Shown in pieces: positions 22,853 through 51,176 of a stretch of 64,000 nucleotides of DNA. Below the pieces are notes generated by a model. That model ran no database searches. It worked only from the letters and a program-made list of their open reading frames with translations, and was not told where the DNA came from. The position numbers and the translations under genes were made by a program. Positions within the stretch are counted from its first letter, which is position 1. Each line of letters opens with the position of its first letter. The stretch spans positions 1,191,540 to 1,255,539 of the forward strand of contig KE159598.1 in assembly GCA_000403275.2 (NCBI GenBank), written 5' to 3'. Source of the DNA: Lachnospiraceae bacterium 28-4. GTDB taxonomy: Bacteria; Bacillota; Clostridia; Lachnospirales; Lachnospiraceae.

Positions 22853-23152
22853 TTGATCGGCCGCTCAACCGAAGACGTGGAGACAGGCACGGAATCTACA
22901 AATCTTACGATTTCTGCGATGCAGGTCATCAGTGAATGCATCCAGTCGATTAAAGTGCTGATGGATGAAATTGCATTGGCCAGCGCCCAGCAATCGGAAA
23001 TGATCGTCTCCGTGGAAAACCGAATTAAAGAGGTTTCCAAAGTAACGGAAGCGAACTCTACTTCGGCAGAAGAAAGCGCGGCCATTTCCAATGAGTTATC
23101 CAATCAGTCGAAAACGCTGAATCGTTTGATCAGCCAGTTCCGTATTGAATAA
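22853..23152 (+). pseudogene. Chemoreceptor C-terminal fragment
   Basis: About 99 codons (ISECIQSIKVLMDEIALASA, then SVENRIKEVSKVTEANSTSAEESAAISNELS) match the far C-terminal coiled coil of a methyl-accepting protein. The hairpin tip and all sensing domains are absent; upstream in-frame sequence hits a stop at about 22846. The remaining spacer from 22604 holds nothing else recognisable. A decayed relic of a once complete gene on the plus strand. Confidence 0.75.
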
Positions 23153-23167
23153 ATAATCAAAAAACCC

Positions 23168-23228
23168 TATTTTTTTTTCAGCGCGGCATGCCCGGATAGT
23201 TTTCCACCGGCAGCCGCGCTGAATTTTG
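23168..23228. terminator. Hairpin terminator between the relic and the BspA-like gene
   Basis: TTCAGCGCGGC and GCCGCGCTGAA form a stem with T- or A-rich flanks on one side (CCTATTTTTTTTTCAG), between two convergent genes. Confidence 0.65.
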
Positions 23229-23245
23229 TTACAAGCTGTTTGCTC

Positions 23246-25741: not shown

Positions 25742-25819
25742 TTTTATGACCTCCTATTTTTTGTTTGGGGAGAACTTTTGATTGACAATACTCTCCCAAT
25801 ATATCATTATGCAAATATG

Positions 25820-25848
25820 ATTATATCCAGCCAAAATTAATTTGTAAA
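25820..25848 (-). promoter_or_regulatory. Promoter of the BspA-like gene
   Basis: TTTACA (25843-25848 on the minus strand, inside the last codons of jetD), a 17-bp spacer and TATAAT (25820-25825). It shows that the surface-protein gene need not depend on the Wadjet promoter. Confidence 0.65.
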
Positions 25849-27174: not shown

Positions 27175-27175
27175 T

Positions 27176-31213: not shown

Positions 31214-32349
31214 CTGTTCTTCTCCTTTGCATCAAACTCTGCCGGATAACTCCCGATCATTTTTCCTGCCGCCGGATAGATGACAAGTTCTTCGCCACAC
31301 TCGCCAATCATCATCCATGATTTCATATAAGAGATAACCGCTGTCAACAGCTTTACGTCCTCCATCTCTCTGTATTCCTTGCTCCATGCCAGTCTGTACT
31401 TATCGCGGCAATGGTAAATTTCTTTCTGAAACTCTTTTGTTGAAACCACAATGCACCCATCATACCGCTCTTTCCAAACACCCTCGTCTGCTTTTTCCCT
31501 GATCCGTCCGCACAAAAGTAAAACAAGTTCCGGGAGCATAGCCTCTCTTGGATGCATTTCTCCAAAAGATTCCCCTTCATCCATCACCAGAAAGGCAGCG
31601 TTTTTGTGGATATGAAGCTGTCCTCCCAAATATTCACTGAAATTTTTCTGTATCCACTGCCTCTGGTTTTTTAAATAGATACTGTCCGGGTTATCAGACT
31701 GGTTCCAGTAAAGGGCCGGGGCCGCAGCGATCTGCCTGTATACACGATTAATCCTGTAGTGCCCCCTGTCCGCTTCGCCTTCCTGATTCTGTTGCTTTTC
31801 AAAGTCTTCCCATGACTGGAAACCAGCTATGCTATATGCAAAATTTACCGCCATATATCTGGAAAGCCCTGTGTTCTCATATAAGATTTCCTGTCCAATG
31901 CTGCTGCCCACATTATCGCTGCTGCCTTCATATGCTTCTAACAACCTCATGTTCTCACAAAACTGCAGTACTCTTACGAGGGACTTCCTCTGTGTAAAAG
32001 ACGTCCAGTCTACATCCATCACATCTTTTAGCTGCAGTTCCAGCATATCTACCAATTCAGATAACAAAAATTGCTCCTGTTCTTCCTTATCTTCCAGGAA
32101 TATTAAGACAGCGCAAAAAAGACAGTAATCCCTGCTCTCCGTAAAGTCTGTAATGCCCATATAGCCTTCCGCGCGGGCAGGTATTTTCTCCACCTTCAAT
32201 ATCTGTTCGTTATTGATTACCGTCCAGCCCAACTGTTCCCGGAAAAATTTCTGGCATTTCGTCAGCTCTCTGCGGACCTTCACATATAATTCTTTATTTT
32301 TCTTTTTGTCAATCCAACAATTCTCTATTAATGCCCTTGCCGCTTCCAT
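31210..32349 (-). CDS. jetB: Wadjet JetB, DUF2398-type winged-helix subunit
   Basis: 379 residues, matching the length of TIGR02678/DUF2398, the KITE-like subunit that bridges JetA and JetC. Recognisable parts are the N-terminal AARALIENCWIDKKKNKELY, the segment YCLFCAVLIFLEDKEEQEQFLLSELVD, and the FTQRKSLVRVLQFCENMRLL winged-helix region. It begins 5 bp after jetA and overlaps jetC by 4 bp. Family identity comes partly from operon position. Confidence 0.87.
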   Translation of the reverse strand: MEAARALIENCWIDKKKNKELYVKVRRELTKCQKFFREQLGWTVINNEQILKVEKIPARAEGYMGITDFTESRDYCLFCAVLIFLEDKEEQEQFLLSELVDMLELQLKDVMDVDWTSFTQRKSLVRVLQFCENMRLLEAYEGSSDNVGSSIGQEILYENTGLSRYMAVNFAYSIAGFQSWEDFEKQQNQEGEADRGHYRINRVYRQIAAAPALYWNQSDNPDSIYLKNQRQWIQKNFSEYLGGQLHIHKNAAFLVMDEGESFGEMHPREAMLPELVLLLCGRIREKADEGVWKERYDGCIVVSTKEFQKEIYHCRDKYRLAWSKEYREMEDVKLLTAVISYMKSWMMIGECGEELVIYPAAGKMIGSYPAEFDAKEKNR

Positions 32350-32354
32350 TTTTC

Positions 32355-33827
32355 CTAATCCTCAAACTGAAATATATATTTAGGCATCACCAGTTTCCCG
32401 TCTTCACATTTCAGAGTGTGGCTCCCTTCCTGTTTTATTAAGCGAAAAGCCTGTCCATACTCGGTACGTCCGTTTTTGGAAACCGTCAGATTCGCCTGTG
32501 CGATCCAGCGCAGAAAAGTCTCCCTTGTATCCACTGAAATGCAGTCGTCAATCCGGCTGATATCCAGTTGGCCGTCCTGAATATATTTCATAACCAGCTT
32601 TCTGTCTTCCTCCAGTTTTTTCAAATATTGGTTACGCTGTGCAAGTTTCTCCAGCGCTTTACTTTCAAACCCGGATTTATGTATTCTTGGTTTATAAGTT
32701 CTGGTATGGGGCTTTAATTCATATTCCGACGGCAGTTCATCAAAAACACTGCTGTTTATGCTATCCGTGGAACGCGGACAATTTACTTTAAAATGCCGCA
32801 CATGCTGTATTCCGAATATATGTGCCGAAAGTTTATGTGCCGCTTCCACGTTTTCGCACCGCGCAAACATCTGGATAAATTTCTTATAATCTTCTTTACG
32901 GCTGATTCCCCAATTTTGTATCTGTACGATCAGTGCTGCATTTTGTATGATTTTCCGTATCACTTCGTCTGTAATATCCATCACTTTCTGGCTTTCGCTT
33001 GGGTGCTTATCGGTCGAAATAAACCAATCTGACAGGCTCTTCCATTTTCCGTAAATATTTTCTCTTATCGCATTCTCCCTTAAATCCTGGATTTCCGAAT
33101 TCGGATGTGGAATTGCCAGCTCACTTTCAATTACTCTCTCCAATACCCCGTCTACCATCTTCTGTGATAATTTCTTAATGATATTTTCAATACGTATGGA
33201 TTTATTCTGAAGCTGCTGCACAAACTCCTGTAGATAAGAAATAAATCTGTCTTTATGTATGACAAATTCAATAGACTTGAGAACTTTATCTGATTTGCCT
33301 GAATAGAATTCTCTCAAATAATCCTGATAATTCCGATTTAACCTCTTAAAATCTTCCTGCAAATTGCTCCACCATTCATTCACGGCTTTCAGTTCCTGAC
33401 GGTCAATCTGCTCTATTTCATGCAAGGCATTTTCAATCCGCACAAAATAATTCATGGACAGATTCCCACTGTCCATGAAAAGATTCTCAAGTTTCACAGT
33501 CATTCTCTCTATCTCTACTGCGTACTCCGACATTGTATAACGGTACTGCTTATTTTTATATTCCGCAATCGTATAAACTCTTTTCGGATCCTGGATAGGG
33601 GTAAGATTTTTCCATCCAACTAACGCCTCTAAATCTGTTTTCAACTGCTCCATAGCATAATCTGAAAACTCCGGATACTCTCTAAGCAGCTCCAGCACAT
33701 CTTCCTTATATAATTGGAAATGCATTTTTTCGTACTCTATAAAAAAAATCCGCATAATACGCCTGTATTGCGGCGCATTACCAGCAGATAAATATATAGT
33801 TTCCTGAATTGATTCCAAATATTTCAA
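32355..33827 (-). CDS. jetA: Wadjet JetA, DUF2397-type kleisin-like subunit
   Basis: 490 residues, as expected for TIGR02677/DUF2397. The N-terminus (RRIMRIFFIEYEKMHFQLYK, then EDVLELLREYPEF) and C-terminus (LRWIAQANLTVSKNGRTEYG, FRLIKQEGSHTLKCEDGKL) fit the family, with helical segments between. JetA closes the SMC ring. It starts at TTG with AAGGGGGG about eight bases upstream and is first in the jetABCD operon, about 105 bp behind a promoter shared in form with the helicase cassette. Confidence 0.88.
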   Translation of the reverse strand: MKYLESIQETIYLSAGNAPQYRRIMRIFFIEYEKMHFQLYKEDVLELLREYPEFSDYAMEQLKTDLEALVGWKNLTPIQDPKRVYTIAEYKNKQYRYTMSEYAVEIERMTVKLENLFMDSGNLSMNYFVRIENALHEIEQIDRQELKAVNEWWSNLQEDFKRLNRNYQDYLREFYSGKSDKVLKSIEFVIHKDRFISYLQEFVQQLQNKSIRIENIIKKLSQKMVDGVLERVIESELAIPHPNSEIQDLRENAIRENIYGKWKSLSDWFISTDKHPSESQKVMDITDEVIRKIIQNAALIVQIQNWGISRKEDYKKFIQMFARCENVEAAHKLSAHIFGIQHVRHFKVNCPRSTDSINSSVFDELPSEYELKPHTRTYKPRIHKSGFESKALEKLAQRNQYLKKLEEDRKLVMKYIQDGQLDISRIDDCISVDTRETFLRWIAQANLTVSKNGRTEYGQAFRLIKQEGSHTLKCEDGKLVMPKYIFQFED

Positions 33828-33885
33828 ATTGTATCCCCCTTCATACCCCCGTATCGTCTTCTCTGAAAATCCTATTGATTACCGT

Positions 33886-33924
33886 TTAAGATTGTCCAAA
33901 CATCCCGTCATATATATTCTCCAT
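33886..33924 (-). other. Possible 12-codon leader frame before jetA
   Basis: ATG to TAA encodes MENIYDGMFGQS, preceded by AAGGA and just downstream of the promoter. A related 13-codon frame (MWEIYTMEHYVQS) occupies the same position in the helicase cassette. It may be a translated leader or simply shared promoter-proximal sequence. The predicted transcription start is only 7-8 bases upstream, so translation initiation might be weak. Confidence 0.4.
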
Positions 33925-33938
33925 ATTCCTTAGTATAA

Positions 33939-33967
33939 ATCATATCATTTTCATATCGTATACACAA
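33939..33967 (-). promoter_or_regulatory. jetABCD promoter
   Basis: TTGTGT (33962-33967 on the minus strand), a 17-bp spacer and TATGAT (33939-33944). The region aligns with the helicase-operon promoter at 42654-42682, with the same spacing and mostly identical spacer (ATATGAAAATGA). Confidence 0.75.
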
Positions 33968-34018
33968 CTACATTTAAAATATAATTTGGATTTTTTCAAA
34001 TCTCCTACATTTAATTTA

Positions 34019-34099
34019 TCATTTCAATTTGCCCACCGATATACTGACAGACGCCAACCGCTCCACTATTATTTGCTCATCTACATACATTATTTTCAT
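34019..34099 (-). CDS. Possible 26-residue peptide upstream of the jet promoter
   Basis: Reads MKIMYVDEQIIVERLASVSI.. with GGAAAGGTG directly before the ATG. It could be a small regulator or the relic of one. No relative is obvious in the equivalent part of the helicase cassette. Confidence 0.25.
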   Translation of the reverse strand: MKIMYVDEQIIVERLASVSISVGKLK

Positions 34100-34155
34100 C
34101 ACCTTTCCATTCACAGCTTTTATTGCTTAATATACCTCTCATTTTCTTATACATT

Positions 34156-34335
34156 TTAACAATACTTTTTCATACCTGTATTCACAATCGACGTGAAAAA
34201 TTTCTTCTGGATTTCTGACAATATTGGTATCTCCCTTATCATTTCCTGTATTCTATTCATATTATTACCTATTTGGGGTGTCAATCTATAAACAACTTCC
34301 AAGCATTCTAAATATTCTCTATTTATTAATTCCAA
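34156..34335 (-). CDS. Small hypothetical protein in the Wadjet upstream region
   Basis: About 59 residues from a TTG start (ELINREYLECLEVVYRLTPQ, then IGNNMNRIQEMIREIPILSEI). GAGAGGTAG lies about eight bases upstream, and a promoter TTGTAT-17 bp-TATACT at the edge of the direct repeat (about 34393-34421) points to it. Mostly helical, no known motif. The helicase cassette lacks a counterpart. It may be a regulator of the jet operon; a real gene is probable but not certain. Confidence 0.45.
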   Translation of the reverse strand: MELINREYLECLEVVYRLTPQIGNNMNRIQEMIREIPILSEIQKKFFTSIVNTGMKKYC

Positions 34336-34507
34336 AATACTACCTCTCGTTCTCAATCTTTCTTAAATAAATATCGTCAAAATATTAAAATCAGTATAGC
34401 ATGCTAACCCATTTCATACAACGCATAATAAACACTTTGTTCGGCTCTATATTCTATAAAATAACATACACTTTATCCCAAAATTCCCCTCGCTTTTACC
34501 CTAGCAG

Positions 34508-34673
34508 ACTATTTTCGACACAAAGCGCCCCATACCCTGCGTATGTCAAGTTAATGTCACAAACTTTTTTCACTTCTTTTGAGTGAAAATCGCTGAAACC
34601 CGCATAACTTCGTGGGGCGTATGGTTTGCTAATGCTAAGTTGGGGCAAAATTGACGGTGAATTAATGTCAAGT
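34508..34673. repeat. 166-bp direct repeat, copy 1 (cassette boundary)
   Basis: Aligns without gaps to 43018-43183, nine mismatches by hand count. It contains the hairpin TTTCACT..AGTGAAA, an imperfect inverted pair around GCGCCCCATA / TGGGGCGTATGG, and terminal motifs ATGTCAAGTTAATGTCAC and GAATTAATGTCAAGT. Weaker similarity continues leftward to about 34418 and then through the operon promoter. It ends 31 bp from the stop codon of the downstream helicase fragment. Likely an attachment-site remnant. Confidence 0.85.
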
Positions 34674-34704
34674 AAAAGAGGTCTCCCAAACATAAGAATA
34701 AAAT

Positions 34705-36663
34705 TTATTTTAATAACTGACAAGATATTCTTTCAATTGAATTAACAATTTCCGACCACCATGGACTACTAGTGATTGCAGCTATACTTCCTCCCATTGC
34801 TAACACATTCTGGAATTTCTCCACCCATGTTTGCTTATCTATTTTTCTTGATTTTTCTATCGTACTAGTCAGTTCTCTTAAAAGTGACAATGCCTCCTCT
34901 TCTTGCTGTTTATTACAATTATTCCGGATTATATTTTCAATATTTACAATTTCATTATTATACAAATTATTTATTATATTTTCTTTATAAACGGTTCCCT
35001 CATATACTGTTACTTTTTTTATCTTATTGTGTTCAAATACTGCCATATTAACATTTCCTCCTTCATTTATTACACTGTCTCTAATTAAAGTTAAATTTGT
35101 TCTCTTAGAACACAACATGTTCATAATGTAATCATCTACCTTTTTTCTGAGTAAAACATCATCTTCATCCTCCTCTCGCTCTTCATATAAAGCAATAATA
35201 TCATCCAAATAGCTTTCCTCCACAAAATAGTATTTCATTGTTAAAATATCAAATAATGGATATATATTTCCAAGTCTTAAAAGACAATTCTTGTACATGG
35301 TCACAAACAAACGATATGTAATTTGTTCTTTATTCTCTCTTATTTTATCACTAGATAATAAAATCAACTTGTCAGATTTTATATGATACACCTCACTTGC
35401 ATTTATTTCATCTATCATATTGCGAATATTTCTTATCTGGGATTCATCATTTTCTTCCGACATCGGAAATATCCAATACACCTTTTGACTATACTCTATT
35501 CTTATCAGACACTCTCTAACAATTTCCCATTTAGCAGTTGTACACCCTTCGGAAAACAATTCGCAAATATCGTTCACCGTTAATATTCCATTTTCTTCAT
35601 AATTCCACAATATTGTTCTAGCATCTTCGCTAATCCTCTGTATTTCATACAAATGATCTGTCTCATTCCAAATCCCTTTCATTTGATAATAAGCCTTTAA
35701 TGCATCATAAAGTTCTTGAAATACACTTCTAGGAATTCCTGTTTTTTCTTTGTTTCTTATATTTCTAACATAAGAAATTACATCCATATGTCTTTGCATA
35801 GCCTCTTTTCGAAGTCTCATCAATCGCTCTCTTGAAAGAAATCCAATATGTCTGCTGGCAAGTAAAACTGTATCTTCAGGTACTCCATATTTAATTTTAC
35901 CGGCTTCTTTTGCCAAGCTATTACACCATTTTTCATTTATACCATATTCTTCAAAACTATAAGATAATGCTTCCCACAAATACGCTACCACATCTCCCAA
36001 CCGATCCATATCTCCTAATTTGGCACTTCTGATACCAGTACTTTTCCCAATATTTTTAACTGTATTACCACTACACCATTCATACATAAGCACCGCATTT
36101 TTAAGGGCTCGTCCTTTACTTTGATTCGGCAATTTACCATAATTCTTTTCATAAATATCCAATATCCGATGCAATGAACCCTTAGGTAACAAATTTGTTT
36201 TCTTTTTCTGCAAATATTTGATGGCGTTTCCCGTATCTTCTGGCTTATCTTCATCTATACCTTTATTAACTTCTATTGCAGTACACAATTCAAATAAGAT
36301 ATCTAGAAAATATACATGAAAAAGGCCAAAAAATACTTCTCTACTAATTTTTTCTTTAGCTTTGTCATCGTCCATATATTCAATTTCAATCCGCTTCCTG
36401 TCAGAAGTATAATATGACATAATCCGTTCCTGTAAATCCCTAATAATCTTGACAGTATTAAGATTCAGAGCATAACCTGCCAATTTTTCTCCTTTGCGAG
36501 TTATTGAATAATCTCCTACTTTATCTACTTCTTCAATCAACTGTGCGTGTTTTAACTCCTCCAACTGATTCTTATAGTCCTCTGATATATTATTCGGAAT
36601 TTCTATCTGCTCTCCCTTCTCAATTTTCTTCCTATTACTTTCTAAACCTCCATGCCCGCACAC
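34705..36663 (-). pseudogene. C-terminal half of the second Ski2-like helicase, split by IS110
   Basis: 652 codons with no helicase ATPase motifs. Its first part has a winged-helix segment (NQLEELKHAQLIEEVDKVGDYSITRKGEKL-like, residues 30-60) that corresponds to LEELVKYNLIEEEGSERYSLSRIGEAL after the helicase core of the intact paralogue, so it continues the fragment at 38238-39872. The rest is helical with no recognised domain; the end has a hydrophobic patch (LAMGGSIAAITSSPWW). A GTG at 36663 opens the frame but is probably not a natural start; the frame reads on into the IS end. Together the halves would encode about 1190 residues. Confidence 0.8.
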
Positions 36664-36689
36664 TTGGCACCACCATAAATGAAACTGTG

Positions 36690-36915
36690 CAGACGATAGG
36701 TTCTTGATTTTGTTTGTGCCGTTATTTATACTTATGGCAACGGCAAAAATCGTGTTTATTTTGGGCTGGAAGCCCGTTTTCTAAACTGATTTCAGGTACT
36801 CTCATTTGCACCACCACCTGTCCAGCCATTTAAGAACCCCGGTTCACGGCAAAAGGACGTATAGTAAAATGATAAGAGACAGAGTACCGTGCCGTAAATT
36901 CCACCAGGAGGTGCC
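36690..36915 (+). ncRNA. Candidate bridge RNA region of the IS110 element
   Basis: The long upstream non-coding end has several hairpins, such as GGGCTGGAAGCCC and GGCTGGA..TCCAGCC, and no open frame. In IS110-group elements this position encodes the bridge RNA whose two loops pair with target and donor DNA. Assignment rests on position and foldability, not on a matched family. Confidence 0.45.
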
Positions 36916-36918
36916 AGT

Positions 36919-38154
36919 ATGGATAGAATTTACGACAATTGTTGTGGTATTGATGTTCACAAAAAACTTATCGTTGCCTGCTTCCGATGCGGCAAAAAGC
37001 AGGACGTGCGTGAGTTTGGCGCAACAACCAGAGAACTCCTCTCATTGGCTGACTGGCTCAAAGAAGGCGGCTGTGAAATGGTCGCTATGGAGAGTACAGC
37101 CTCTTATTGGAAGCCTCTGTACAACATCCTTGAATCTTCTGACTTGAATGCCATGGTGGTCAATGCCCGCCATATGAAAGCTGTTCCAGGTCGAAAAACA
37201 GACGTAAAAGATGCGGAATGGATCGCTGACCTTTTACAGCACGGTCTGCTTCAGCCCAGTTACATTCCCGACAAAGACCAGCGGGAACTGAGGGAATTAG
37301 TCCGTTATCGCAAAAGCCTTGTAGGTGAACGTACCAGAGAATTGAACAGGCTCCAGAAGATGCTGGAAGGAGCCAACATCAAGTTGTCCGGGACCGTATC
37401 TGACATCAATGGCAAAAGCGCCCGCAGCATCCTGGAGTATCTCCTTACCGGGGAGCCCATCGATGAGGCAAAATACGATGAGATGTATAATCAGAAGGTC
37501 ATTGCCCATAATCTCAAAGCCACCAGGGAGCAGATCATTGATGATCTCAATGGTGTCATGTCATCTCTCCAGCGCCGGATGATGAAGGAACTTCTCATCC
37601 ATTTGGACGAACTGAATATTCACATCAGAAATCTGGATGATGAGATTGACAACTTCATGAAACCGGAGGAAAAGCAAGCTTCCCAGGCAATCCAGGACGT
37701 GACTGGCATAGGCAATACCAGTGCCCAGGCCATCATTTCTGTCATTGGTACGGATATGGAGCGTTTTCCAACGGATAAACACATTTCATCCTGGGCAGGG
37801 TTGTGTCCTGGAGACAATGAAAGCGCCAAAAAGAGAAAATCTGGAAAGACCAGAAAAGGGAACTCTCTACTACGGACAACATTGATCACCTGTGCGCATG
37901 CAGCTGTAAAAAACAAGAAGTCTTACTTCCATGCTCAGTTTATGCGGATAAGTGCCCACCGAGGGACAAGGCGTGCCTATGTGGCCGTTGCCCATTCCAT
38001 GCTCATTGCGATATACCACATCCTCAAGGATGGTGTTGTTTTCAAGGATCTGGGAGCTGATTATTACAACCAGTTCAACAAGGAACGCAAGATCAATGCA
38101 TACCTTAAAAAGTTAAAAGCGCTTGGTTGGGAAGCTCCAGTAGTTGCCGCATAA
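36919..38154 (+). CDS. IS110-family transposase (DEDD recombinase)
   Basis: 411 residues. The N-terminal RuvC-like DEDD domain shows GIDVHKKLIVACF (Asp), VAMESTASYWKPLY (Glu) and GRKTDVKDAEWIADLL (two Asp). A coiled coil at 110-260 precedes the C-terminal Tnp domain (SAQAIISVIGTDMERF, HISSWAGLCPGDNESAKKRK) with the conserved catalytic Ser region. Full length and undisrupted, so it may still be active. AGGAGGTG lies seven bases before the ATG. Confidence 0.93.
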   Translation: MDRIYDNCCGIDVHKKLIVACFRCGKKQDVREFGATTRELLSLADWLKEGGCEMVAMESTASYWKPLYNILESSDLNAMVVNARHMKAVPGRKTDVKDAEWIADLLQHGLLQPSYIPDKDQRELRELVRYRKSLVGERTRELNRLQKMLEGANIKLSGTVSDINGKSARSILEYLLTGEPIDEAKYDEMYNQKVIAHNLKATREQIIDDLNGVMSSLQRRMMKELLIHLDELNIHIRNLDDEIDNFMKPEEKQASQAIQDVTGIGNTSAQAIISVIGTDMERFPTDKHISSWAGLCPGDNESAKKRKSGKTRKGNSLLRTTLITCAHAAVKNKKSYFHAQFMRISAHRGTRRAYVAVAHSMLIAIYHILKDGVVFKDLGADYYNQFNKERKINAYLKKLKALGWEAPVVAA

Positions 38155-38237
38155 ACCTGTCAGTTAAGTTTAAAATCAGCTTTTTTGAGTTTGACAGGGG
38201 CAGTCTGCGCTTTTTGGGCTACCCGGAAGGTTGTGTT

Positions 38238-39872
38238 TCATAGTAAACAATATTGAAAAAACAAATTATTCATAGCACTTCCATATTGGGCCAGTTCAAA
38301 ATTCCCCTGATTATCCGCAATTCCACTATTGCACTGTACAAGGTTTAATGCAAATGGCGCCTTTTCTTTATTATTTAGATTTAATAAATGAGACATTATA
38401 TTAATTGGTTTAGCCTTTACATATTTATTCCAATAATCATTTGCCTCTGACTTAGAAGAAACAATTAAGTAGCTTTCTCCACAATCTGCTGATCTCAAAC
38501 CCAATCTTCCTGCTCTACCAATATAATTTTTATATTCAGAAGATGACATATAAGCTTTTTTATCCCCAGCCTTTGGCAACCTAGTCCCAGCTAAAATTAC
38601 CACATCTGCCGGCATATTGACTCCAATAGCTAAAGTTCCTGTTGCCACAACAATATCAATAAGTCCATTCTCATTCCTAAATTCCTCTTCCACAAAATTT
38701 CTAACAGTTTTTGACAAACCACCGTGATGATAGGCCACTCTATAGGGAAGACATTTGTTTATAAAATCTCCAATATCTTCTTCTGCTTCTTTTAGATTAA
38801 CAAATTCCTCTTTTATAGGATTTATTGTTTGTTTGTCTACCAAATTATTATTCACCAAATATGTACCTAAATTCTTCGCCACTTCTTCTACAGAATTTTT
38901 ATAATTAATAAATACTAATATTTTAGGTTTTTTATTCGGTTCCCGGGAAAATAGATAATTCACCAATGGATAAACTAACGATTTTTCACATTTCCCCTTT
39001 TTTAAGTCTGGTCTCACAATTTTATCATAAAGTTTTTTTTCTTTTCCATGTTCCCCGCTTTCACTTTTGTCTTTATTTACACATTCGTCCTCATCTGCTA
39101 GTTCTTCATTAAGATAATAGAATAAAGTGTACATCGAATCTTGTTCTTCATTATTTCGCTTTTCTTTATCTGGCCAAATTATATACTCCCTCAAACCTTT
39201 AGGACGTTTTGTGCATTTTATTTCCTTTGCATTAATCCACTTTTGCAAATATAAAACATCACATTGCAAAGTTGTCAAACCAATTAATTTGCACCGTTGA
39301 TTCATCATATTAATTTTTGTAAGCGCAATTTCCAATTTCGCTCCTCTATCTTCTACATTCAACATCTGCAACTCATCAATTACAATCAAACAACATTTTT
39401 TTACAAATCTTGTATCTTGTGCCAAAAGTGCAAAAAATTTCTCATAAACCATTACAGCAATCTTAAAGTTTCCTTCAATAATATCATCATCATGATCCTG
39501 ATAATCAGAAGATGATGCAAACACTGTCCAATTCAAATGCTTTTCAAAAAGATTTCCAAATTCCTTCCGCTTTTCTGATACCATAACACGCAATGGCACT
39601 AAATATATAATTTTGTTCTCATTATTATCCAATCTTTCCATACTACCAAAATACGCCATAGCCATTTCCGCTACCATTGTTTTTCCTGAAGAAGTTCTTC
39701 CTCTTACAATTATATTTTCCTCAGATTCCCAAAATTCATCTTTCGAAAATGCTTCTTTTTGCATTTGCGTTAAATAATCACAATCCTCCATCCCTTTATG
39801 TTTTTCACGAAACAAATCCAACATCTCATTGTCCATTTTTTTCTCTAAATCTTTAAGTGATTCTATCTTCAT
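38238..39872 (-). pseudogene. N-terminal half of the second Ski2-like helicase, split by IS110
   Basis: 544 codons containing a complete superfamily 2 helicase core: RGRTSSGKTMVAEMA (motif I), VPLRVMVSEKRKE (Ia), CLIVIDELQML (II, DELQ), LIGLTTLQC (III), ILVFINYKNSVEEVAKNL (IV), VVATGTLAIGVNMPADVVIL (V) and YIGRAGRLGL (VI). The tail (MNNLFFQYCLL) runs into the IS end and stops. Its missing C-terminal part is at 34705-36663. It follows the first helicase by 25 bp as second gene of the cassette. The split protein might retain ATPase activity but has lost its C-terminal 650 residues. Confidence 0.85.
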
Positions 39873-39897
39873 AAACGTTATTCCTTTCTCATTTGAA

Positions 39898-42387
39898 TTA
39901 CTTTAAAATTTTATACACATAATTTCTAAATCTTTTAGTCAACATATAGTTACTACTCATTTCTTCTGTCTCATTCTGGAAACTCTTAATAATCTCCGCA
40001 GTTTTATAATCACCAAATCTTTTTAACAAGCGTCCAATTTGAGGTCGACATGAAACAGGCAAGTTCTCTATCGTTCCTTTCATACAAGAATATGGATAGC
40101 CATATTTTAATTCTTCTCTGACTTCATTTAACATTTCTATAAGTTTAGATTTTCCATCATAGCAACCAACAAAATCCATGACTCCCGACAATAAATATAG
40201 TATTTGATTCGTAATATTTTGAATATACCCTACTGTAACCTTAATTTGATATCTTCTATAAATATCCTGAAGCAATGCTCCATTTGACCATTCACATATA
40301 AGTATTGTATTAGAAAACTGTATCAACCCATATGCTAAATCCACGCTCAAATAACAATAACCATTCTCATTTATAGGTATAAGTTCCAATACGCATTCCT
40401 TATATTGTTCCAACTTCTTTCGAAATACCTTTGCTACACTCAAACTTATCTGTCCTGATTGCAACAAGCTATCAATATATCCAGAATATTTTCTTAAAAA
40501 TTCTAATAGTTCCTCCTTTTTTCTCGATATCAACCCATACTCTAGATTTTCCAAAAGCTCACACAAATCATAGATAAGTAAAAATTTAGAATATTTAAAA
40601 TCATCTTCCTTTATCATTCGGCGATGGATTCTATCAAATATTTTAATCGCCAAAACAGAAAAATGTTTTCCTCTTAATGCTTCTCCTATCCTGCTTAATG
40701 AATACCTCTCACTCCCTTCCTCCTCAATCAGGTTATATTTTACTAATTCTTCCAGAATAATATCTGTATATCTTTGTTCAACAAAACATCTCCCTGTTAA
40801 TACTCTAATTGCGTCTGCTATATCTTTCTGCGAAAAAAATTGTTCATTATCTATCTCTAGAAAATCTAATATGTACATTACACATTCTTGCGGTTTCTTT
40901 TTTAATTTTCTATAAAACAGATGCAAGCAATCAGGTAAATTATCATTTTCCTCATTATAATAACAACGCCTTACAATACTTGTAGACATCTCATTTTTTG
41001 TTAAAAGATATGCATATCCAACATATTTTGACTTTTCTGCAAAAAAGCCCAATCTTCCTGCTCTTCCAATAAAATTTTGGTATTCTGCGCGATTAATATA
41101 CCTCCAAAAATAATTACCATATGTAGATATATTGCTAGGATAATCATCCATATCAGTTATTTTTGCTCTGTTAAATACAATTACAACATCTGTTGAACTA
41201 TTTATTCCATATGCTAATGTTTCTGTAGATACAATGATATTAATCCTGCTTTTTCCTTTTTTTCTACTGAACTCTTTTTCTATCTCACTCCGTAATTCAT
41301 ACGGCAAATCTGCATTGTGAATCATTACACCATATTTACTACACTTTTCCAAACTTTTATCTATACACCCAAAACCATTATCATCCAATTCGTTCTTTAT
41401 TCGGCATAATTCCCTACTCCAATCCCCATAATCACTTAGTCTTTCCTTTATCATATTTCCAAGATATTTTGCAATACCCTTCGATGACTGTTTATTATTA
41501 CAAAAAATTATCATATTATGGCCTCTTTTCCGATGTTCAAATACAAGAGCCTTCAATACCTCCTTTGCTTGAATCGTATCTAAATCATCTTTTTCCTCTA
41601 ATATAGACGTAGCCGACATAAACTTCTTTTTCTGTTTAAACTTTATTTCAAAAATCCATTTCTCTTCTTCATCCTTTGGATAAAAAATTTGTTCATCAGC
41701 CTGATAAATCGCCTCTTTCAACACAACATTTCTATTCGAAAAAAAAATTTTTAAAAAGTTTAATTCCTTATATTCTGGCATTTTACACTCTGGTACCGTT
41801 AAGCCAATAATTCTAGCTGTATTTTGTCGGCTCTCAACAGAAACATATTCCTCATATTTTTTTAATATATAATGAACTCTTAAACCTCTATTCATTGACA
41901 TCATTATAGATAATTCATCAAAAACAATTAGATCATATTTGCCAAATATATTATCATTTTTTCGGTTTATTCTCAAATAGTTTTCCAATTTTTCATATAT
42001 GAGAATTGCAATATCACAATCCCCTGTAAAAATTTTATCATCATCTTCAAAATAATCACTAGATGATCTGTAGATAATGGTCTCTCGATCAAAATATTCC
42101 TTAAACATCTTATATTTTTCATTTAACAACGCCTTGTAAGGAACTAAATATAGTAATCTGCGTCTATCTATCTTGTTGGCCATTAACGCAAATATTGTTA
42201 ATAATGTTTTACCAGTACCTGCCGCAGCTTGAACCACAATATTCCTACTACAATCCCAAAACTCAGGAGTCTCTATTGCTTTTTTCTGCAAATCCGTTAA
42301 TGCTTTTATACTCCTACTTAAAGAGTTACATAATTTTTTAACATCATAATTATCATGAACTTGTGGATATGAACTTATCTTCAGCAT
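39898..42387 (-). CDS. Ski2-like DExH helicase, first gene of a two-helicase cassette
   Basis: 829 residues. Motif I VVQAAAGTGKTLLTIFAL, motif Ia VPYKALLNEKYK, motif II DLIVFDELSIM (DELS), motif III IIGLTVPE, motif IV MIIFCNNKQSSKGIAKYL, motif V IIVSTETLAYGINSSTDVVI and motif VI FIGRAGRLGF give a Ski2-like core, followed by a winged helix (about residue 550) and a helical C-terminus without a nuclease motif. The closest known types are Hel308/Brr2-like. ATG start with CAAGGAG upstream; about 265 bp leader behind the shared-type promoter. The partner helicase is directly downstream. A function in phage or plasmid defence is inferred from pairing and from the Wadjet neighbour. Confidence 0.85.
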   Translation of the reverse strand: MLKISSYPQVHDNYDVKKLCNSLSRSIKALTDLQKKAIETPEFWDCSRNIVVQAAAGTGKTLLTIFALMANKIDRRRLLYLVPYKALLNEKYKMFKEYFDRETIIYRSSSDYFEDDDKIFTGDCDIAILIYEKLENYLRINRKNDNIFGKYDLIVFDELSIMMSMNRGLRVHYILKKYEEYVSVESRQNTARIIGLTVPECKMPEYKELNFLKIFFSNRNVVLKEAIYQADEQIFYPKDEEEKWIFEIKFKQKKKFMSATSILEEKDDLDTIQAKEVLKALVFEHRKRGHNMIIFCNNKQSSKGIAKYLGNMIKERLSDYGDWSRELCRIKNELDDNGFGCIDKSLEKCSKYGVMIHNADLPYELRSEIEKEFSRKKGKSRINIIVSTETLAYGINSSTDVVIVFNRAKITDMDDYPSNISTYGNYFWRYINRAEYQNFIGRAGRLGFFAEKSKYVGYAYLLTKNEMSTSIVRRCYYNEENDNLPDCLHLFYRKLKKKPQECVMYILDFLEIDNEQFFSQKDIADAIRVLTGRCFVEQRYTDIILEELVKYNLIEEEGSERYSLSRIGEALRGKHFSVLAIKIFDRIHRRMIKEDDFKYSKFLLIYDLCELLENLEYGLISRKKEELLEFLRKYSGYIDSLLQSGQISLSVAKVFRKKLEQYKECVLELIPINENGYCYLSVDLAYGLIQFSNTILICEWSNGALLQDIYRRYQIKVTVGYIQNITNQILYLLSGVMDFVGCYDGKSKLIEMLNEVREELKYGYPYSCMKGTIENLPVSCRPQIGRLLKRFGDYKTAEIIKSFQNETEEMSSNYMLTKRFRNYVYKILK

Positions 42388-42588
42388 ATTTTATATTTTC
42401 TCCTTGCGTTATACAAAAGAATAATCTCAGAAGTTCAAAAAGCTTACCCCTTAATTCCTTATCTGACACCCAGAAAAAGCATACATTTCTACATCATAAA
42501 TCCCACTTAGGTAATAGGAAAACAACTCCCAGTATAGCCTTCCCAAAAATCTTATTCATTACTGAAATGATCATTTATCGACAATCAT

Positions 42589-42630
42589 TTAAGACTGTAC
42601 GTAATGCTCCATCGTATATATTTCCCACAT
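42589..42630 (-). other. Possible 13-codon leader frame before the helicase operon
   Basis: ATG to TAA encodes MWEIYTMEHYVQS, with CGGAG upstream, placed after the promoter as in the jet cassette (MENIYDGMFGQS). Similar ends (EIY/NIY, QS-stop). The following 200 bp up to the helicase start hold no clear gene. Confidence 0.4.
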
Positions 42631-42653
42631 AATGCTCCGTATTTCTTATTTAT

Positions 42654-42682
42654 ATCTTATCATTTTCATATTACATATACAA
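42654..42682 (-). promoter_or_regulatory. Promoter of the two-helicase cassette
   Basis: TTGTAT (42677-42682 on the minus strand), a 17-bp spacer and TAAGAT (42654-42659), matching the jet promoter in spacing and in most spacer bases. Confidence 0.7.
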
Positions 42683-42762
42683 CTACATTCAAAATACTAT
42701 TTGCTTTTTACAACTTTTTTACAAATCCTCCACCTTTATTACATTGACTTAAATTCCCTCTC

Positions 42763-42774
42763 CTGATATATCAG
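42763..42774. promoter_or_regulatory. Palindromic operator candidate upstream of the helicase promoter
   Basis: CTGATATATCAG is a perfect 12-bp palindrome about 80 bp upstream of the -35 box. The jet cassette has a degraded version (CAGTATATCGG near 34040). Might bind a regulator or be a remnant of one shared regulatory site. Confidence 0.4.
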
Positions 42775-43017
42775 CAGGGAGATTTCCCCCACTTATACAT
42801 TGCATCTCACTCTCTATCTTCACCCTCGGACACCCTAAAATACACGACACAGTAATTTTGTCATTTTATGTAAGAACCTATAAATGACTAATGACCGTAA
42901 GCAAATTAAATCTATTCGAATTTTAAATCAACGCATAATAATCACTTCATTCGACACCATACATCACAAAATAGAGTCCTTATTTCCCCAAAAGCCTACT
43001 CTATTCTATCTTGGTAA

Positions 43018-43183
43018 ACTATTTTCGACACAAATCGACCCGTAACCCGCGTATGTCAAGTTAATGTCACAAACTTTTTTCACTTTTTTTGAGTGAAAAT
43101 CGCTGAAACCCGCATAACTTCGTGGGGCGTATGGTTCGCTAATGCTAAGTTAGGGCAAAATTGACGGTGAATTAGTGTCAAGT
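43018..43183. repeat. 166-bp direct repeat, copy 2 (ICE/cassette junction)
   Basis: Nearly identical to 34508-34673. Its right end, GTGTCAAGT, is where similarity between the copies stops and where the truncated fourth frame after the recombinases acquires its stop codon. The stretch 42683-43017 between promoter and repeat holds no convincing gene. Best explanation: this is the ICE side of an attachment junction. Confidence 0.85.
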
Positions 43184-43237
43184 TGTTATTGCCACCTGAT
43201 CCGGATTGCCCACCCTCATGTATATTACTGCTTTCAT
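43178..43237 (-). pseudogene. Truncated start of a fourth recombinase-like gene at the attachment junction
   Basis: The frame MKAVIYMRVGNPDQVAITT begins with an ATG that overlaps the stop of the upstream recombinase as ATGA, with AAAGGAG ahead. The first residues look like the opening beta strand of a resolvase-type protein (K-A-V-I-Y-x-R-V). The stop TGA comes from ACTTGACA, the end of the 166-bp direct repeat. Seen directly: the overlap, binding site and junction. Inferred: the rest of the gene sits at the other ICE end and is rejoined on excision. Confidence 0.55.
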
Positions 43238-44793
43238 TCTGTCTCCTTTCCATTTTCGCGGAAGTTCCACACAATTTCAACTCTTTTGTCTTTGTAAACG
43301 TATATTTTCTTAATAAATATATCAGCCACTTCCTGTGTCAGCGTTTCTAAATGGGAATACCGTATGACCTGCTTCATATCTTCCTCTGTCCTGCGGTATT
43401 CTTCCCGAAGCTGTTCCAGTTCTTTCCCATATTTTTCTTCCTCTGCTGATAAGGAAACGATCTGCTCTATTATACCGTCCGCCTTCTGTCTGTAGGATGT
43501 GGCCTGAACCGAACCAAACGCATAGCTTTCATATAAGGCATCCGCCTCTGCCTGGAGCTGCTTTTTCCTGCCCCGGCACTCTGCTATCTTCTTTTCCAGC
43601 CTTGCCATACAAGACTTCTGGAAAGAAACAAGACTCTGGTTCTCCTTTGCGGCATCCCCGCGTACCATCAGTTCCCTGTTCAACATAGTCAGCACGGCTT
43701 CCTCTAACAAGTCAGCAGAAAAATAGGTACAGCACTCCGGTATCTGCAAAACAGCATGTTTCCGGCACTCAAACCTGCGGTATTTATTCTTCCCCCGTAT
43801 GGGTTTATACGTCATGGAATAACCGCACCCGCCGCAGAACAGTTTCCCTACAAGGGGGTTTTTCTCCCCTTTTCTGGCAGTGTCCGCTCCTTTACGGAAC
43901 AGGCACACCTTTTCGTAATCTTCCAATGAAACAAGCGGCTCATGGTGGTCTGGTATCACTTTCCAGTCCTCAGCCGGCACAGCGATACCGCCTTTACTGC
44001 CCACATACTTCCGCTTCGACTTCCCATAGGCCATCTCACCTAAGTAAAAGCGGTTATTCAGGACAGCCCGGACAGACACGTTATCCCATGCCTGCATCCT
44101 GCCGCTTTTCTCTGCCCTCTCAGGATGGCGCATCTGTGTTTTGGTCGGTATCCCCTTTTCATTGAGAATCCTTGCGATCTGTGTGCTGCCGTTCCCATCA
44201 AGGGCAAGGGCAAAGATGTAACGCACAATCTCCGCTTCCTTCTCATTTACCACAACCGCATTTTTGATTTCCTTATCTTTTTCATACCCAAAGGGAACCT
44301 GTCCGAAAACATATTCCCCACCCGCGCATTTATTTTCAACCGAAGTTTTGACCTTTACGGATATATCTTTGCTGTATAAATCATACAAAAGTGTCTGGAA
44401 AGCCGTGTCGATCGGGGTAGTGCTTCCTGCATGGTCACGGCTGTCATAATGGTCATTTACCGCGATAAACCGCACCCCCATGAATGGGAATATCTGGTTC
44501 ATATAGGTTCCAAGCTCGATATAGTCCCTTGAGAAACGGGACATATCCTTGACAAGCACACATCCTATCTTATTGTCCCTGATCTCTTTTAGGAGCCTCT
44601 GCATCCCCGGCCTTTCCATGCTTGTGCCGGAATAGCCGTCATCACAAAACTCGGAAACCTCTTTATCCCTCAATTCACCGTTACCGCGTATGTAAGCGTG
44701 AAGCATAGCCCTCTGGCTGCTGATACTGTTGCTCTCGTCCTTATCGTCCGCATCTTCCAGGGAAAGCCGCAGATAAATTGCAAGTTTATCCAT
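43234..44793 (-). CDS. Large serine recombinase 1 of 3
   Basis: 519 residues. The resolvase domain has LAIYLRLSLEDADDKDES and NSISSQRAMLHAYI with the catalytic Ser, GYSGTSMERPGMQRLLKEI, and VLVKDMSRFSRDYIELGTY. A recombinase domain (about 170-280), a zinc ribbon (KLFCGGCGYSMTYKP, ECRKHAVLQIPEC) and a C-terminal coiled coil follow, as in TnpX. It starts 8 bp inside the preceding recombinase gene with GGAGGGGG upstream. Acts in excision and integration of the element. Confidence 0.93.
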   Translation of the reverse strand: MDKLAIYLRLSLEDADDKDESNSISSQRAMLHAYIRGNGELRDKEVSEFCDDGYSGTSMERPGMQRLLKEIRDNKIGCVLVKDMSRFSRDYIELGTYMNQIFPFMGVRFIAVNDHYDSRDHAGSTTPIDTAFQTLLYDLYSKDISVKVKTSVENKCAGGEYVFGQVPFGYEKDKEIKNAVVVNEKEAEIVRYIFALALDGNGSTQIARILNEKGIPTKTQMRHPERAEKSGRMQAWDNVSVRAVLNNRFYLGEMAYGKSKRKYVGSKGGIAVPAEDWKVIPDHHEPLVSLEDYEKVCLFRKGADTARKGEKNPLVGKLFCGGCGYSMTYKPIRGKNKYRRFECRKHAVLQIPECCTYFSADLLEEAVLTMLNRELMVRGDAAKENQSLVSFQKSCMARLEKKIAECRGRKKQLQAEADALYESYAFGSVQATSYRQKADGIIEQIVSLSAEEEKYGKELEQLREEYRRTEEDMKQVIRYSHLETLTQEVADIFIKKIYVYKDKRVEIVWNFRENGKETE

Positions 44794-46489
44794 TTATAAG
44801 CACCCCCTCCAGCAGTTCATTTGTATAGGCGAACTCCACTTCTATCCGCTTCCCCGGATAGACATAAATCTTCTGGATCAGGGATTCTACCATTTCCCTT
44901 GTCAGTTCCCTGCCGCTTTTTAACCGGAGCAGGGCACGGGCCGCCGCAAGGTATTTCCCCGATACAGTATTAAGGTTCTTCCTTTCTGCTTCCAGTTCCT
45001 CCCTCTGCCGGCTTAAGTCTTTTAACCTCCCCTCCTGCCGCATCTTATAAGCAACATACTCGCTCTGGGGGATAATGCCCTCACGGTATTCCACATATTT
45101 TGTCCGTTCCTCCTCTTTTGCCGAGGAGGTCTCCCTTTCTGCTTTCTTGATTTTTGTATCAACCACTGTCCCGGCTGTCCTGAGCTGCTCTTTTACAACC
45201 TCCGTATACTGCTTTGGTTTTCCTAAATACACGGAAAACTCCATTCTAAGGAGAGGTAACAGGATATCCACCAGTTCCGCCTTTGAAATACGGTTTGATG
45301 CAGGGCAGCTCTCCACTTTTGTCTGCCCGCCGTTTAAGCAGAAATAACCGTCCAGTCTTGCCTTCCTGCCATCCGCATAGGTTTTCACATAACTGTGCCG
45401 CGTCATTTTCCTGCCGCACACGCCGCAGTAAAGCACACTGTCAAAAATATTCTCCCCAATCGGGCATCCTTTTGTCGGATGGTCATGGGATTTCGTCCTT
45501 TCATGGAGCCTTTCCCTTACTTTTGCCGCTTCTGCAAACACCGCCGCATCAATAACAGGTTCATGGGCATTTTCTTTGACTACCCATTCTTCCTCCGCTT
45601 TGTGGATACGGTTTTTCTCGTCCCTTACAGTGATGGAAGTCCGTCCCTGCACCAGCTTCCCGGTGTATGTCTCACTTTTCACGATACGCTCCACAGAGCC
45701 TTTATCCCAGCCTTTGTATTCTCCCTGTTCCGGGTCAAAAAAGACTTTTCCGGTTTTCTTATACACAGACGGCGGGTTGCACTTTTTCCTGTTCAGGTCA
45801 TCCGCCACCGCCGTGAAGCTGCCCGTTTCAATAAACAGCCTGAAAATATGCTTCACAATCCCCGCAGTATTTTCATCCGGCGTTAGTTTCCGTATTTTCT
45901 TGTCCCACGCGGCTTTGTAACCGTAGGGCGGCGGTCCTCCCACATAGGAGCCTTCCTGCCGTCTTTGCTTTAGATGCTGCTTTGCTTTTACGGAAAAGTC
46001 CTTTGCATACATATCGTTGACAAGATTTTTTATCTCCGTTGCCATCTGCTTTGTATCGCTTCCGCGGTGTCCCGTATCAAGGCCGTCAGCAACCGCAATA
46101 AATCGGACGCCCAGGAACGGGAAGATTTTCTCAATATAATTTCCCGCTTCCAGATAGTTCCGTCCAAACCGGGAAAGGTCTTTGACCACTACGCAGTCAA
46201 TGTCGCCCAGCCGTATGTCCTGCATAAGCCTCTGAAACTCGTCACGTTCAAAATTGCTCCCCGTTTTCCCCAGGTCTGTATAACGGTCTATGATCTCTAT
46301 CCGCTCTGTCCCTTCCCGGTTCAGTTCTTCGATATGCTTTTCCGCAATCTTTACCTGCACTTCTACGGATTCGTTCTTTTTCCTGTCCTGGTCTGATGAA
46401 AGCCTTGCATAAATGCCTGCTTTGTAACATGTTCTCGTTTTTTTATCCGCCACAGCAGGGGCGGAAGTCCTCTTTGACACTCTGCCCAT
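44786..46489 (-). CDS. Large serine recombinase 2 of 3
   Basis: 567 residues. Resolvase domain: AGIYARLSSDQDRKKNESVE with the Ser-containing motif, KTGSNFERDEFQRLMQDI, VVVKDLSRFGRNYLEAGNYI. Zinc ribbon: YCGVCGRKMTRHSYV with a later ESCPAS. Coiled-coil end. One base follows the upstream recombinase stop and 8 bp overlap the next gene. The three recombinases diverge clearly from each other, so they likely have separate tasks in one reaction. Confidence 0.93.
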   Translation of the reverse strand: MGRVSKRTSAPAVADKKTRTCYKAGIYARLSSDQDRKKNESVEVQVKIAEKHIEELNREGTERIEIIDRYTDLGKTGSNFERDEFQRLMQDIRLGDIDCVVVKDLSRFGRNYLEAGNYIEKIFPFLGVRFIAVADGLDTGHRGSDTKQMATEIKNLVNDMYAKDFSVKAKQHLKQRRQEGSYVGGPPPYGYKAAWDKKIRKLTPDENTAGIVKHIFRLFIETGSFTAVADDLNRKKCNPPSVYKKTGKVFFDPEQGEYKGWDKGSVERIVKSETYTGKLVQGRTSITVRDEKNRIHKAEEEWVVKENAHEPVIDAAVFAEAAKVRERLHERTKSHDHPTKGCPIGENIFDSVLYCGVCGRKMTRHSYVKTYADGRKARLDGYFCLNGGQTKVESCPASNRISKAELVDILLPLLRMEFSVYLGKPKQYTEVVKEQLRTAGTVVDTKIKKAERETSSAKEEERTKYVEYREGIIPQSEYVAYKMRQEGRLKDLSRQREELEAERKNLNTVSGKYLAAARALLRLKSGRELTREMVESLIQKIYVYPGKRIEVEFAYTNELLEGVLING

Positions 46490-46490
46490 G

Positions 46491-48158: not shown

Positions 48159-48305
48159 CTGTATCACCCCTGACTTTTTATTAGCTAACAAGGATAGCCG
48201 TTATCCCGCTCATATCTAAAAGCCAGGGCTTCCACTGAATCAAGTCCTGACTTTAGATTAACATAACTTTTCCGTTCTTTCAAGAACAAACTCCTTTTAT
48301 TCCGG

Positions 48306-51010: not shown

Positions 51011-51040
51011 GCGCCCTATCCAAGAACTCGGATAGGGCGC
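51011..51040. repeat. Hairpin at the left border of the RIT element
   Basis: GCGCCCTATCC and GGATAGGGCGC form a perfect 11-bp inverted repeat around AAGAACTC, directly adjoining the RIT inverted repeat and the start of the response regulator gene. Could be the insertion target or a regulatory hairpin. Confidence 0.55.
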
Positions 51041-51176
51041 ATTATCCGAGATTTTTAATTATCCGAGGAAATTCTTAAAAACCTTTTGTATGCGGGGGTT
51101 CATGCAAAAAATCTCGGATAAAATTTATCCACATGGGCATAGTACAGTTAAAGCTATCAAACAGGAGGTTTTAACT

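Follow-up and report, generated by a model that had tools for sequence, protein, structure and literature searches.

Two operons in a 64,000-nucleotide (nt) stretch of the genome of Lachnospiraceae bacterium 28-4 (the window, numbered over its full length from its first letter), a Wadjet operon and an operon with two helicase genes, are each bounded on the right by a copy of the same 166-bp repeat. What is this repeat, and how did the two operons come to lie in a row beside a set of serine recombinase genes? We propose that the repeats are attachment (att) sites of a chromosomal cassette system, resembling the staphylococcal cassette chromosome (SCC), at the 3' end of a gene for a CspB-like S8 protease, a reading that the sequence comparisons make probable. 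The assembly of defence islands is an open question, and at this locus the unit borders, the target site, the rebuilt gene end and the recombinase element can all be read.

Anatomy of the boundary repeat and the cassette front

Alignment reproduced the repeat pair reported in the initial annotation, with nine mismatches and no gaps between 34508-34673 and 43018-43183; within the own genome, BLAST gave E 3.8e-70 for the second copy. The weaker similarity described beyond the repeat also held, since the ungapped pair reaches 262 nt at 83% identity (34412-34673 and 42922-43183), with most of the divergence in the outer zone (61 of 100 positions match in 34408-34507). Each copy consists of about 30 bp on the left that read as an antisense S8 C-terminal tail, then a short G-run core, then a recombinase arm of about 135 bp; we take the repeat to be an att site. 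The features concerned are as follows.

25837-33827, minus strand: Wadjet type II payload, with JetD at 25837-27291, JetC at 27176-31213, JetB at 31210-32349 and JetA at 32355-33827 (PADLOC, Pfam)
33939-33967, minus strand: promoter-like TTGTGT-17-TATGAT, upstream of jetA
34496-34537, minus strand: S8 3' tail of the Wadjet cassette, reading GYGALCVENSLLG and a stop, core included
34508-34673, plus strand: boundary repeat copy 1, putative att site by sequence comparison, with the Wadjet unit on its left and the helicase unit on its right
34529-34537: core of copy 1, CCCATACCC, putative crossover stretch
34538-34673, plus strand: putative recombinase arm of copy 1, with the half-site GCGTATGTCAAG, the inner motif GTGGGGCGTATGG at 34612-34624 and the end motif GAATTAATGTCAAGT at 34659-34673
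34705-42387, minus strand: helicase payload, with a 652-amino acid (aa) protein at 34705-36663 and helicases at 38238-39872 and 39898-42387
42654-42682, minus strand: promoter-like TTGTAT-17-TAAGAT, preceding the gene for the first helicase
43006-43048, minus strand: S8 3' tail of the helicase cassette, reading GYGSICVENSLPR and a stop, core included
43018-43183, plus strand: boundary repeat copy 2, putative att site by sequence comparison, with the helicase unit on its left and the serine recombinase element on its right
43039-43048: core of copy 2, CCCGTAACCC, putative crossover stretch
43049-43183, plus strand: putative recombinase arm of copy 2, with the copy-1 motifs again at 43122-43134 and 43169-43183

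The two promoters claimed earlier are present on the minus strand, running from 33967 to 33939 and from 42682 to 42654. The shared promoter architecture was likewise confirmed, as a promoter block that recurs at cassette fronts, with the correction that it forms a second module separate from the repeat: the promoters lie within a 59-nt block of 81% identity (33936-33994 and 42651-42709), about 540 bp (copy 1) and 340 bp (copy 2) to the left of the repeats and outside the 90-bp zone of weaker similarity. A promoter function of the repeat itself was ruled out, its left part being the tail of the protease gene. The block is found at the front of cassettes with unrelated payloads, mostly directly upstream of a gene for a 311-aa protein that is 84-92% identical across eight loci (e.g., L077:8604-9539; G-numbers denote the genomes compared, G000 being the own genome, and L-numbers the loci). 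This protein weakly resembles Rpn nucleases (E 7e-5, below the cut-off), and its predicted structure had no usable fold (mean predicted local distance difference test score of 43.5). Both cassettes of the window have kept the promoter and not the 311-aa gene.

Distribution of the repeat and geometry of the arrays

At E ≤ 0.001 the repeat matched 17 of 299 genomes in an even draw from the family, few of the matches being full length, and 8 of 16 genomes at genus level, the own genome included in both counts. No match to the repeat was detected in plasmids and phages, and none to an exact 32-mer of it in viral contigs. The same 32-mer found 40 stretches in a species genome collection, under titles of Lachnospiraceae, other Clostridia and unclassified or uncultured bacteria. 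When the 38 genomes behind these stretches (L035 and L061 fall in genomes already counted) were searched again with the repeat, we obtained 89 matches on 59 contigs, 19 of which held at least two; its presence in 38 of 38 is uninformative on frequency because the genomes were chosen for carrying it. All 30 pairs of neighbouring copies (≤20 kb) in this selected set are co-oriented, at spacings of 1.1-9.4 kb. From core to core each unit is made up of arm, payload, promoter and S8 tail, and the units stand head to tail in a single orientation. Gene strands (83 minus and 6 plus in 35 intervals, versus 168 and 40 left of the arrays) constitute weak evidence.

The search that the initial annotation had called for, a listing of the DNA between consecutive copies in other genomes, thus returned one-way arrays of changing cassettes, many of them defensive. 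The two outcomes that it had set against its own proposal were a repeat scattered over unrelated places, which was not found in the genomes looked at, and a single duplication in this strain, which was not found either, as the repeat occurs in many genomes with variable cargo. A mobile repeat, like an insertion sequence (IS) or a miniature inverted-repeat transposable element, or one local duplication would agree with the own genome, where the full copies number only two, besides a pair of weak partial matches on a different contig (contig 3). The 40 exact 32-mer stretches elsewhere, the one-way copies with variable cargo and their nesting in the S8 tail frame leave this explanation vanishingly improbable, and it was rejected. 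The contig-3 matches (L071; G000:C3:858951 and 862835) are arm-like copies 3.9 kb apart in one orientation, beside other coding sequence, and perhaps belong to a related system at another gene.

What lies to the right of the last copy was surveyed at 37 loci, including the window, that have a copy above 20 bits, with the exclusion of the short loci L024-L063 and of the contig-3 pair of weak matches. A trio of serine recombinase genes follows in 18, an S8 gene in 10 (in G321 the trio and then S8), and in 8 the contig stops within 8 kb. With one exception considered below, every visible right end of an array is formed by an S8 gene whose end the nearest cassette supplies with its tail, or by an element bearing the recombinase trio.

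The 3' end of an S8 protease gene as the probable target

Read on the minus strand, the sequence left of the core continues an S8 protease, and S8 genes in genomes without a detected repeat end in similar peptides, e.g., VGYGALCVRDSLPV or VGYGSLCVADSLPR. An S8-tail-like frame is present in 60 of 66 distinct left halves, as GYGALCVENSLPG and its variants or as the GYGRLDIAGTF type of a second S8 paralogue. Differences per site among the 53 distinct main-type tails amount to 0.291, 0.103 and 0.415 at codon positions 1, 2 and 3, a pattern consistent with that expected for a protein under selection. The solved structure closest to the S8 protein is CspB (E 6.5e-80), with the NCBIfam Csp models below cut-off.

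An S8 gene with a cassette-type tail comes after a repeat copy in 11 genomes (10 from the locus survey and L039); the S8 end is also of cassette type in G268 and G281, where the sequence retrieved showed no additional copy. Of 17 genomes examined, the own genome included, 9 have an S8 gene truncated by the end of the trio element at GGTGGGG followed by GCGTATGGTAATATAGTGTCAAGTTAG or a close variant, so that its tail has been swapped for the end of the recombinase element. As for the remaining eight, the tail is kept in G305, G308 and G314, S8 has another native end in G317 and G334, and the end falls at another place in G306, G320 and G327. S8 and the trio occur on one contig in the correct orientation, 82 kb apart in the window genome, 127 kb in G303, 43 kb in G319 and 7 kb in G321. 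Removal of the 82-kb element in silico joined the 5' part of S8 to the copy-2 tail in a 596-aa open frame ending YPNARVGYGSICVENSLPR, and the same 5' part with the copy-1 tail gives 596 aa ending GYGALCVENSLLG; from this rebuilt frame it follows that each insertion would restore the target site. The serial addition of cassettes at a fixed site, as proposed in the initial annotation by analogy with composite SCC islands, hence agrees with the one-way arrays, the changing and often defensive cassettes, the core borders and the rebuilt target gene. The site itself had been misplaced: these sequences put it at the 3' end of the S8 gene, 82 kb to the right of copy 2 and beyond the window.

Trios without any cassette are found beside a GYGRLD-type tail in G306, G317 and G320 (contig 139), with a 202-aa gene in between in G306. 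At L155 (G337) and L188 (G327) a related element end interrupts S8 at a different G-run, around residue 565 of the reference S8 protein; the trios of these two genomes are more distant. Some tails carry a 22-bp hairpin, CCTCAAGTC-GGAA-GACTTGAGG or a variant (left halves of L034, L059, L061, L067 and L075), and the tail frame is still open in L034, L059 and L061. As a native S8 terminator to the left of the tail, such a hairpin was rejected: among 30 S8 loci it was seen by eye only in G340, G344 and G013, of which a scripted pattern flagged G344 alone, and G340 and G344 have arrays while G013 is without a repeat match. Compared with shuffled sequences, it folds much more stably in G307 (z -4.0), but not at the two window copies (z -0.43 and -0.34) or in G305 (z -0.15).

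The recombinase trio and its element

The right end of copy 2 adjoins the recombinase operon, as had been noted. The window contains the following part of the element.

43234-48191, minus strand: three large serine recombinases of 519, 567 and 566 aa, with a YxRLS catalytic motif in each
43184-64000: window part of the recombinase-bearing element, like an integrative and conjugative element (ICE), which continues to the S8 junction at about G000:C1:1316558, outside the window

Resolvase, Recombinase and zinc-ribbon domains are present in each trio protein. Among curated models, CcrB, CcrC and XisF come closest, all far below cut-off (NCBIfam CcrB 97.9 bits and CcrC 96.8 bits, for a cut-off of 900), and TnpX and YokA are the solved structures nearest to the third recombinase. 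Between copy 2 and the S8 junction we detected a coupling protein (PF02534, E 2.8e-55), a TraG-type ATPase (PF19044, E 5e-11) and a MobA/MobL relaxase (PF03389, E 8.6e-90), because of which the element is termed ICE-like; these conjugation-type genes are located beyond the window. An extra frame of 97-121 aa between the repeat and the trio, which the window's element does not have, is present in six trio elements (G307, G319, G320, G321, G322 and G326). The one such frame that was scanned proved to be a resolvase domain, and in those read RVG replaces the catalytic serine (L082:14075-14440, L064:18554-18847 and L092:9514-9840); this small degenerate resolvase-like protein could be a regulator or directionality factor.

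Two further segments were seen inside the ICE-like element. At L139:9644-15566 another serine recombinase, a VapE-like protein and the MobA/MobL relaxase occur together, and the relaxase may belong to a nested mobilizable element. In the window, 51017-54234 contains three tyrosine recombinase genes in a row (51090-54149); G303 and G305, which match the window at 98.5-99.8% identity on both flanks, lack this segment, and it looks like a separate recombinase-trio element.

A cassette could instead be a decayed ICE or integrative and mobilizable element (IME) that has kept its att sites, the array then recording successive ICE arrivals followed by loss of mobility genes. Such accretion of cis-mobilizable elements (CIMEs) is an established route (PMC5704250), serine integrase triplets do occur in streptococcal ICEs (PMC4701971), and the size of the trio element varies, from 7 kb in G321 (the length counted in favour of this explanation) up to 127 kb in G303. 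A decayed trio element should, however, retain the two-armed end GGGG-GCGTATGGTAATATAG at its S8 side, where 60 of 66 copies carry the S8 tail. The compact payloads, the recurrent promoter module and the near-identical transfer between genomes also argue for maintained units, and we consider decay rather unlikely.

A model for cassette insertion

In the SCC-like model that we favour, the trio would cut at the GG/CC core and join a circular cassette (tail-core-arm) to the 3' end of S8. Because the cassette would bring a substitute tail, S8 would still be readable and a new target site would be formed, so that the next cassette would enter between S8 and the cassette that had arrived before it. 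The recombinase element, with its two-armed site (CTTGACATACGC-GGGG-GCGTATGGTAATATAGTGTCAAG), would enter at the S8 site too and cap the array. Cassettes would depend on the trio in trans, and the cassette promoter would express the payload independently of S8. The adjacent serine recombinases had already been suspected as the agents, which is compatible with the position of their element between the array and the target gene; their action on the cassettes we infer.

Exchange borders between genomes

One and the same cassette can lie beside different neighbours and different trios, and the closest pairs lose identity in the core. The trio side is 99.6-99.8% identical among the window, G303, G305 and G330 (L056), and identity ends at the core, to the left of which these genomes differ. 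Similarly, the Gabija cassettes of G312 and G319 agree at 99.8% identity over 5641 bp, from one core to the next, beside trio proteins that are only 62-67% alike. For a wider comparison, pairs among 57 copies were sorted by shared right or left unit and judged against background identities of 0.84 for the arm and 0.76 for the tail. The 18 pairs with the same right and different left unit had a median arm identity of 0.974 (at least 0.95 in 11 of 18) and a tail identity of 0.78. Of the seven pairs with the same left and different right unit, G319/G312 alone fits the model (tail 1.00, arm 0.80). Some of the left flanks concerned amount to no more than the common front module, with 0.86-0.92 identity, and so discriminate little, but the same-left pairs do not favour the model either. 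A change-point fit assumed a background of 0.55 and cannot place a border inside the conserved tail, and base-by-base alignments and the pair comparison were used instead.

Several observations weigh against site-specific insertion at S8 by the trio. The arm is at background (0.79-0.86), with the cargo flank at 0.94-0.99, in 4 of the 18 same-right pairs (G307/G300, G273/L026, G329/G340 and L040/G307); G311/G300, alike on both flanks, has arms of only 0.84; and in the other six same-left pairs the arms are alike too (0.96-1.00), with tails of 0.72-0.88 in five. To account for arms unlinked in this way, homologous recombination within the arms or an additional site on the right edge of the repeat would be needed. 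The postulated reaction, tail-core-arm with S8-core-tail, also differs from the usual attP × attB reaction of serine integrases. G311 contig 27 has neither S8 nor a trio within the 9.6 kb fetched to the right of its repeat, and in G305, a fragmented metagenome-assembled genome, the only close S8 gene found retains its tail despite a trio element. No repeat copy was found to the left of the Wadjet payload in the window, so that a left border is absent there. Finally, the cassette architecture is directly visible in sequence, whereas trans-acting recombination is what we infer, and no recombination was observed.

The left border of the window's array looks eroded. Within 22840-25837, jetD directly adjoins a gene with BspA-type leucine-rich repeats, at a place occupied by a repeat copy in G319; of a 697-aa gene that G327 has intact (chemoreceptor-like by eye), this border has a 99-aa piece.

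The unlinked arms and the six same-left pairs that do not show the expected split between tail and arm speak for a rival reading, in which homologous recombination shuffled and stacked cassettes across 135-166-bp repeats that are relics of old insertions. In G300/G307 and G273/L026 the change-point fit moreover places the loss of identity near the right end of the repeat, and such crossovers need RecA only. Against it stand the near-identical pairs (window/G303/G305/L056 and G312/G319) that lose identity within a few core bases, the cut of S8 at one G-run by one element end in nine genomes, and the trio elements without a cassette at an S8-type tail in G306, G317 and G320; nor does homologous recombination explain how S8 tails were rebuilt. 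As the general explanation it is therefore distinctly unlikely, and insertion by the trio remains the reading that we prefer.

Cargo of the cassettes

An interval was taken to run from one copy up to the following copy or the S8 gene, which gave 35 in all. Defence calls were made by domain and model scans or by homology to scanned proteins, and they cover part of the proteins. Fourteen intervals have a match to a named defence system, 6 have SMEK-NACHT, STAND-like or TOTE-type proteins, 12 have other or unassigned genes, which qualifies the label "defence" for the arrays, and 3 have no gene of at least 150 aa. The matches were distributed as follows.

Gabija: G312 and G319; GajB alone in G307
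Wadjet type II: G319, which also has an ApeA-like protein
AbiL: G305
Type II restriction-modification: G315, and a weaker match in G327
RADAR-like (RdrB or adenosine deaminase domain): G320 (with Septu PtuA) and G262
Septu: G331
Reverse transcriptase UG10 (DRT): G329 and G340
SIR2-kinase: G323
SMEK-NACHT, STAND-like (below Pfam cut-off) or TOTE-type proteins: G312, G315 (twice), G307, G300 and G344

The 12 other or unassigned intervals include an IS66 transposase, an ABC transporter set, a HipA-like kinase pair, a set of 952, 526 and 477 aa, a Schlafen-type protein and the window helicases; to the left of a copy, G326 has a type I Wadjet system. Phage-integrase matches, below the Pfam cut-off, were obtained for two cassette proteins, and no serine recombinase was found among the cassette proteins that were scanned. 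Two cassettes without a named system recur, one with proteins of 952, 526 or 500 and 477 aa (L075 and L133) and one with a 1339-aa protein bearing KilA-N (L064 and L087), and both are candidates for new defence systems.

In the window, the description of both operons as defence cassettes stood for one of them. All four Wadjet genes form one operon and match JetA2 to JetD2 (PADLOC). The helicase operon, which encodes two DEAD/DEAH helicases and the 652-aa protein, may be defensive judging by its position only. Its helicases match HamB models of Hachiman (E 1.7e-32 and 1e-16) but also further helicase models, and the 652-aa protein had no match in Pfam, PADLOC, NCBIfam or a PDB sequence search. 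Further copies of the 829-aa helicase were not detected at E ≤ 1e-100 among the 299 genomes outside the own genome, nor in viral contigs. An IS110 transposase gene (36919-38154, plus strand) lies inside this cassette, between the 652-aa gene and a helicase gene.

Taken as a whole, the arrays may well represent a dedicated means of capturing defence genes in Lachnospiraceae, an interpretation that we hold somewhat more readily than its negation: non-autonomous cassettes equipped with promoter, S8 tail and arm would be moved in trans by the trio and stacked at a germination-type protease gene that is restored each time, the array being an exchangeable immune repertoire. The unassigned cassettes (the two helicases with the 652-aa protein, the 952-, 526- and 477-aa set, and the 1339-aa protein with KilA-N) would then be candidate new defence systems. 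Gut bacteria, among them isolates (the array-bearing records used include Lachnospiraceae bacterium 10-1 and Parablautia intestinalis D8-82), would allow direct tests of the order in which cassettes arrived, of their exchange among species and of their dependence on the trio. As a search handle, moreover, the repeats define the DNA between them as a cassette and offer a systematic source of undescribed defence candidates.

Comparison with known systems

The JetABCD of the window is an ordinary member of Wadjet type II, and only its setting is unusual. A literature search, in which few subscription journals and no bioRxiv preprints were covered, found no S8 or csp target gene and no such defence arrays described. 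Streptococcal triplet ICEs share with the Lachnospiraceae element three adjacent, co-oriented large serine recombinases at the ICE end beside the target gene (PMC4701971) and conjugation genes within the element. They differ in that they disrupt mutT, traG or hsdM, and the available part of that source describes neither a defence-cassette array nor replacement of a gene end (PMC4701971). CIME accretion likewise yields recombinase-less, att-flanked units stacked beside an ICE (PMC5704250); the units here instead bear a target-gene tail in place of a second element arm, and they recur as compact transferable cassettes. IME_Rho_tet has a single serine recombinase and terminal inverted motifs (PMC12904643).

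Integrons resemble the present arrays in their one-way order, interchangeable cassettes and adjacent recombinase. Integrons have an IntI-type tyrosine integrase and attC sites. The recombinases here are of the serine type, the cassettes are multigenic with their own promoter, the array sits at a host gene and an attC-type site is not shown.

The closest parallel is SCC, which inserts at the 3' end of rlmH and regenerates this target, is moved by the Ccr large serine recombinases and forms composite islands. Both systems have large serine recombinases, tandem composite arrays and defence cargo, and in both the insertion site is the 3' end of a conserved gene, which the insertion re-supplies; for the present system, this re-supply and the regeneration of the site are apparent from the sequences compared. 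A CRISPR-Cas system reported in SCCmec is an example of such cargo (PMC10434264). The differences are the target (a CspB-like S8 gene, not rlmH), the Lachnospiraceae host, three recombinases in a row of which none is a Ccr by curated cut-offs (best 97.9 of 900 bits), cassettes that mostly hold one or two systems and in which no serine recombinase was found, and a multi-motif arm of about 135 bp. By its sequences, then, the system appears to be like SCC in its fixed gene end, the rebuilding of that end at each insertion, its tandem cassettes and its serine recombinases, and to be distinct from SCC in target, recombinase family and host.

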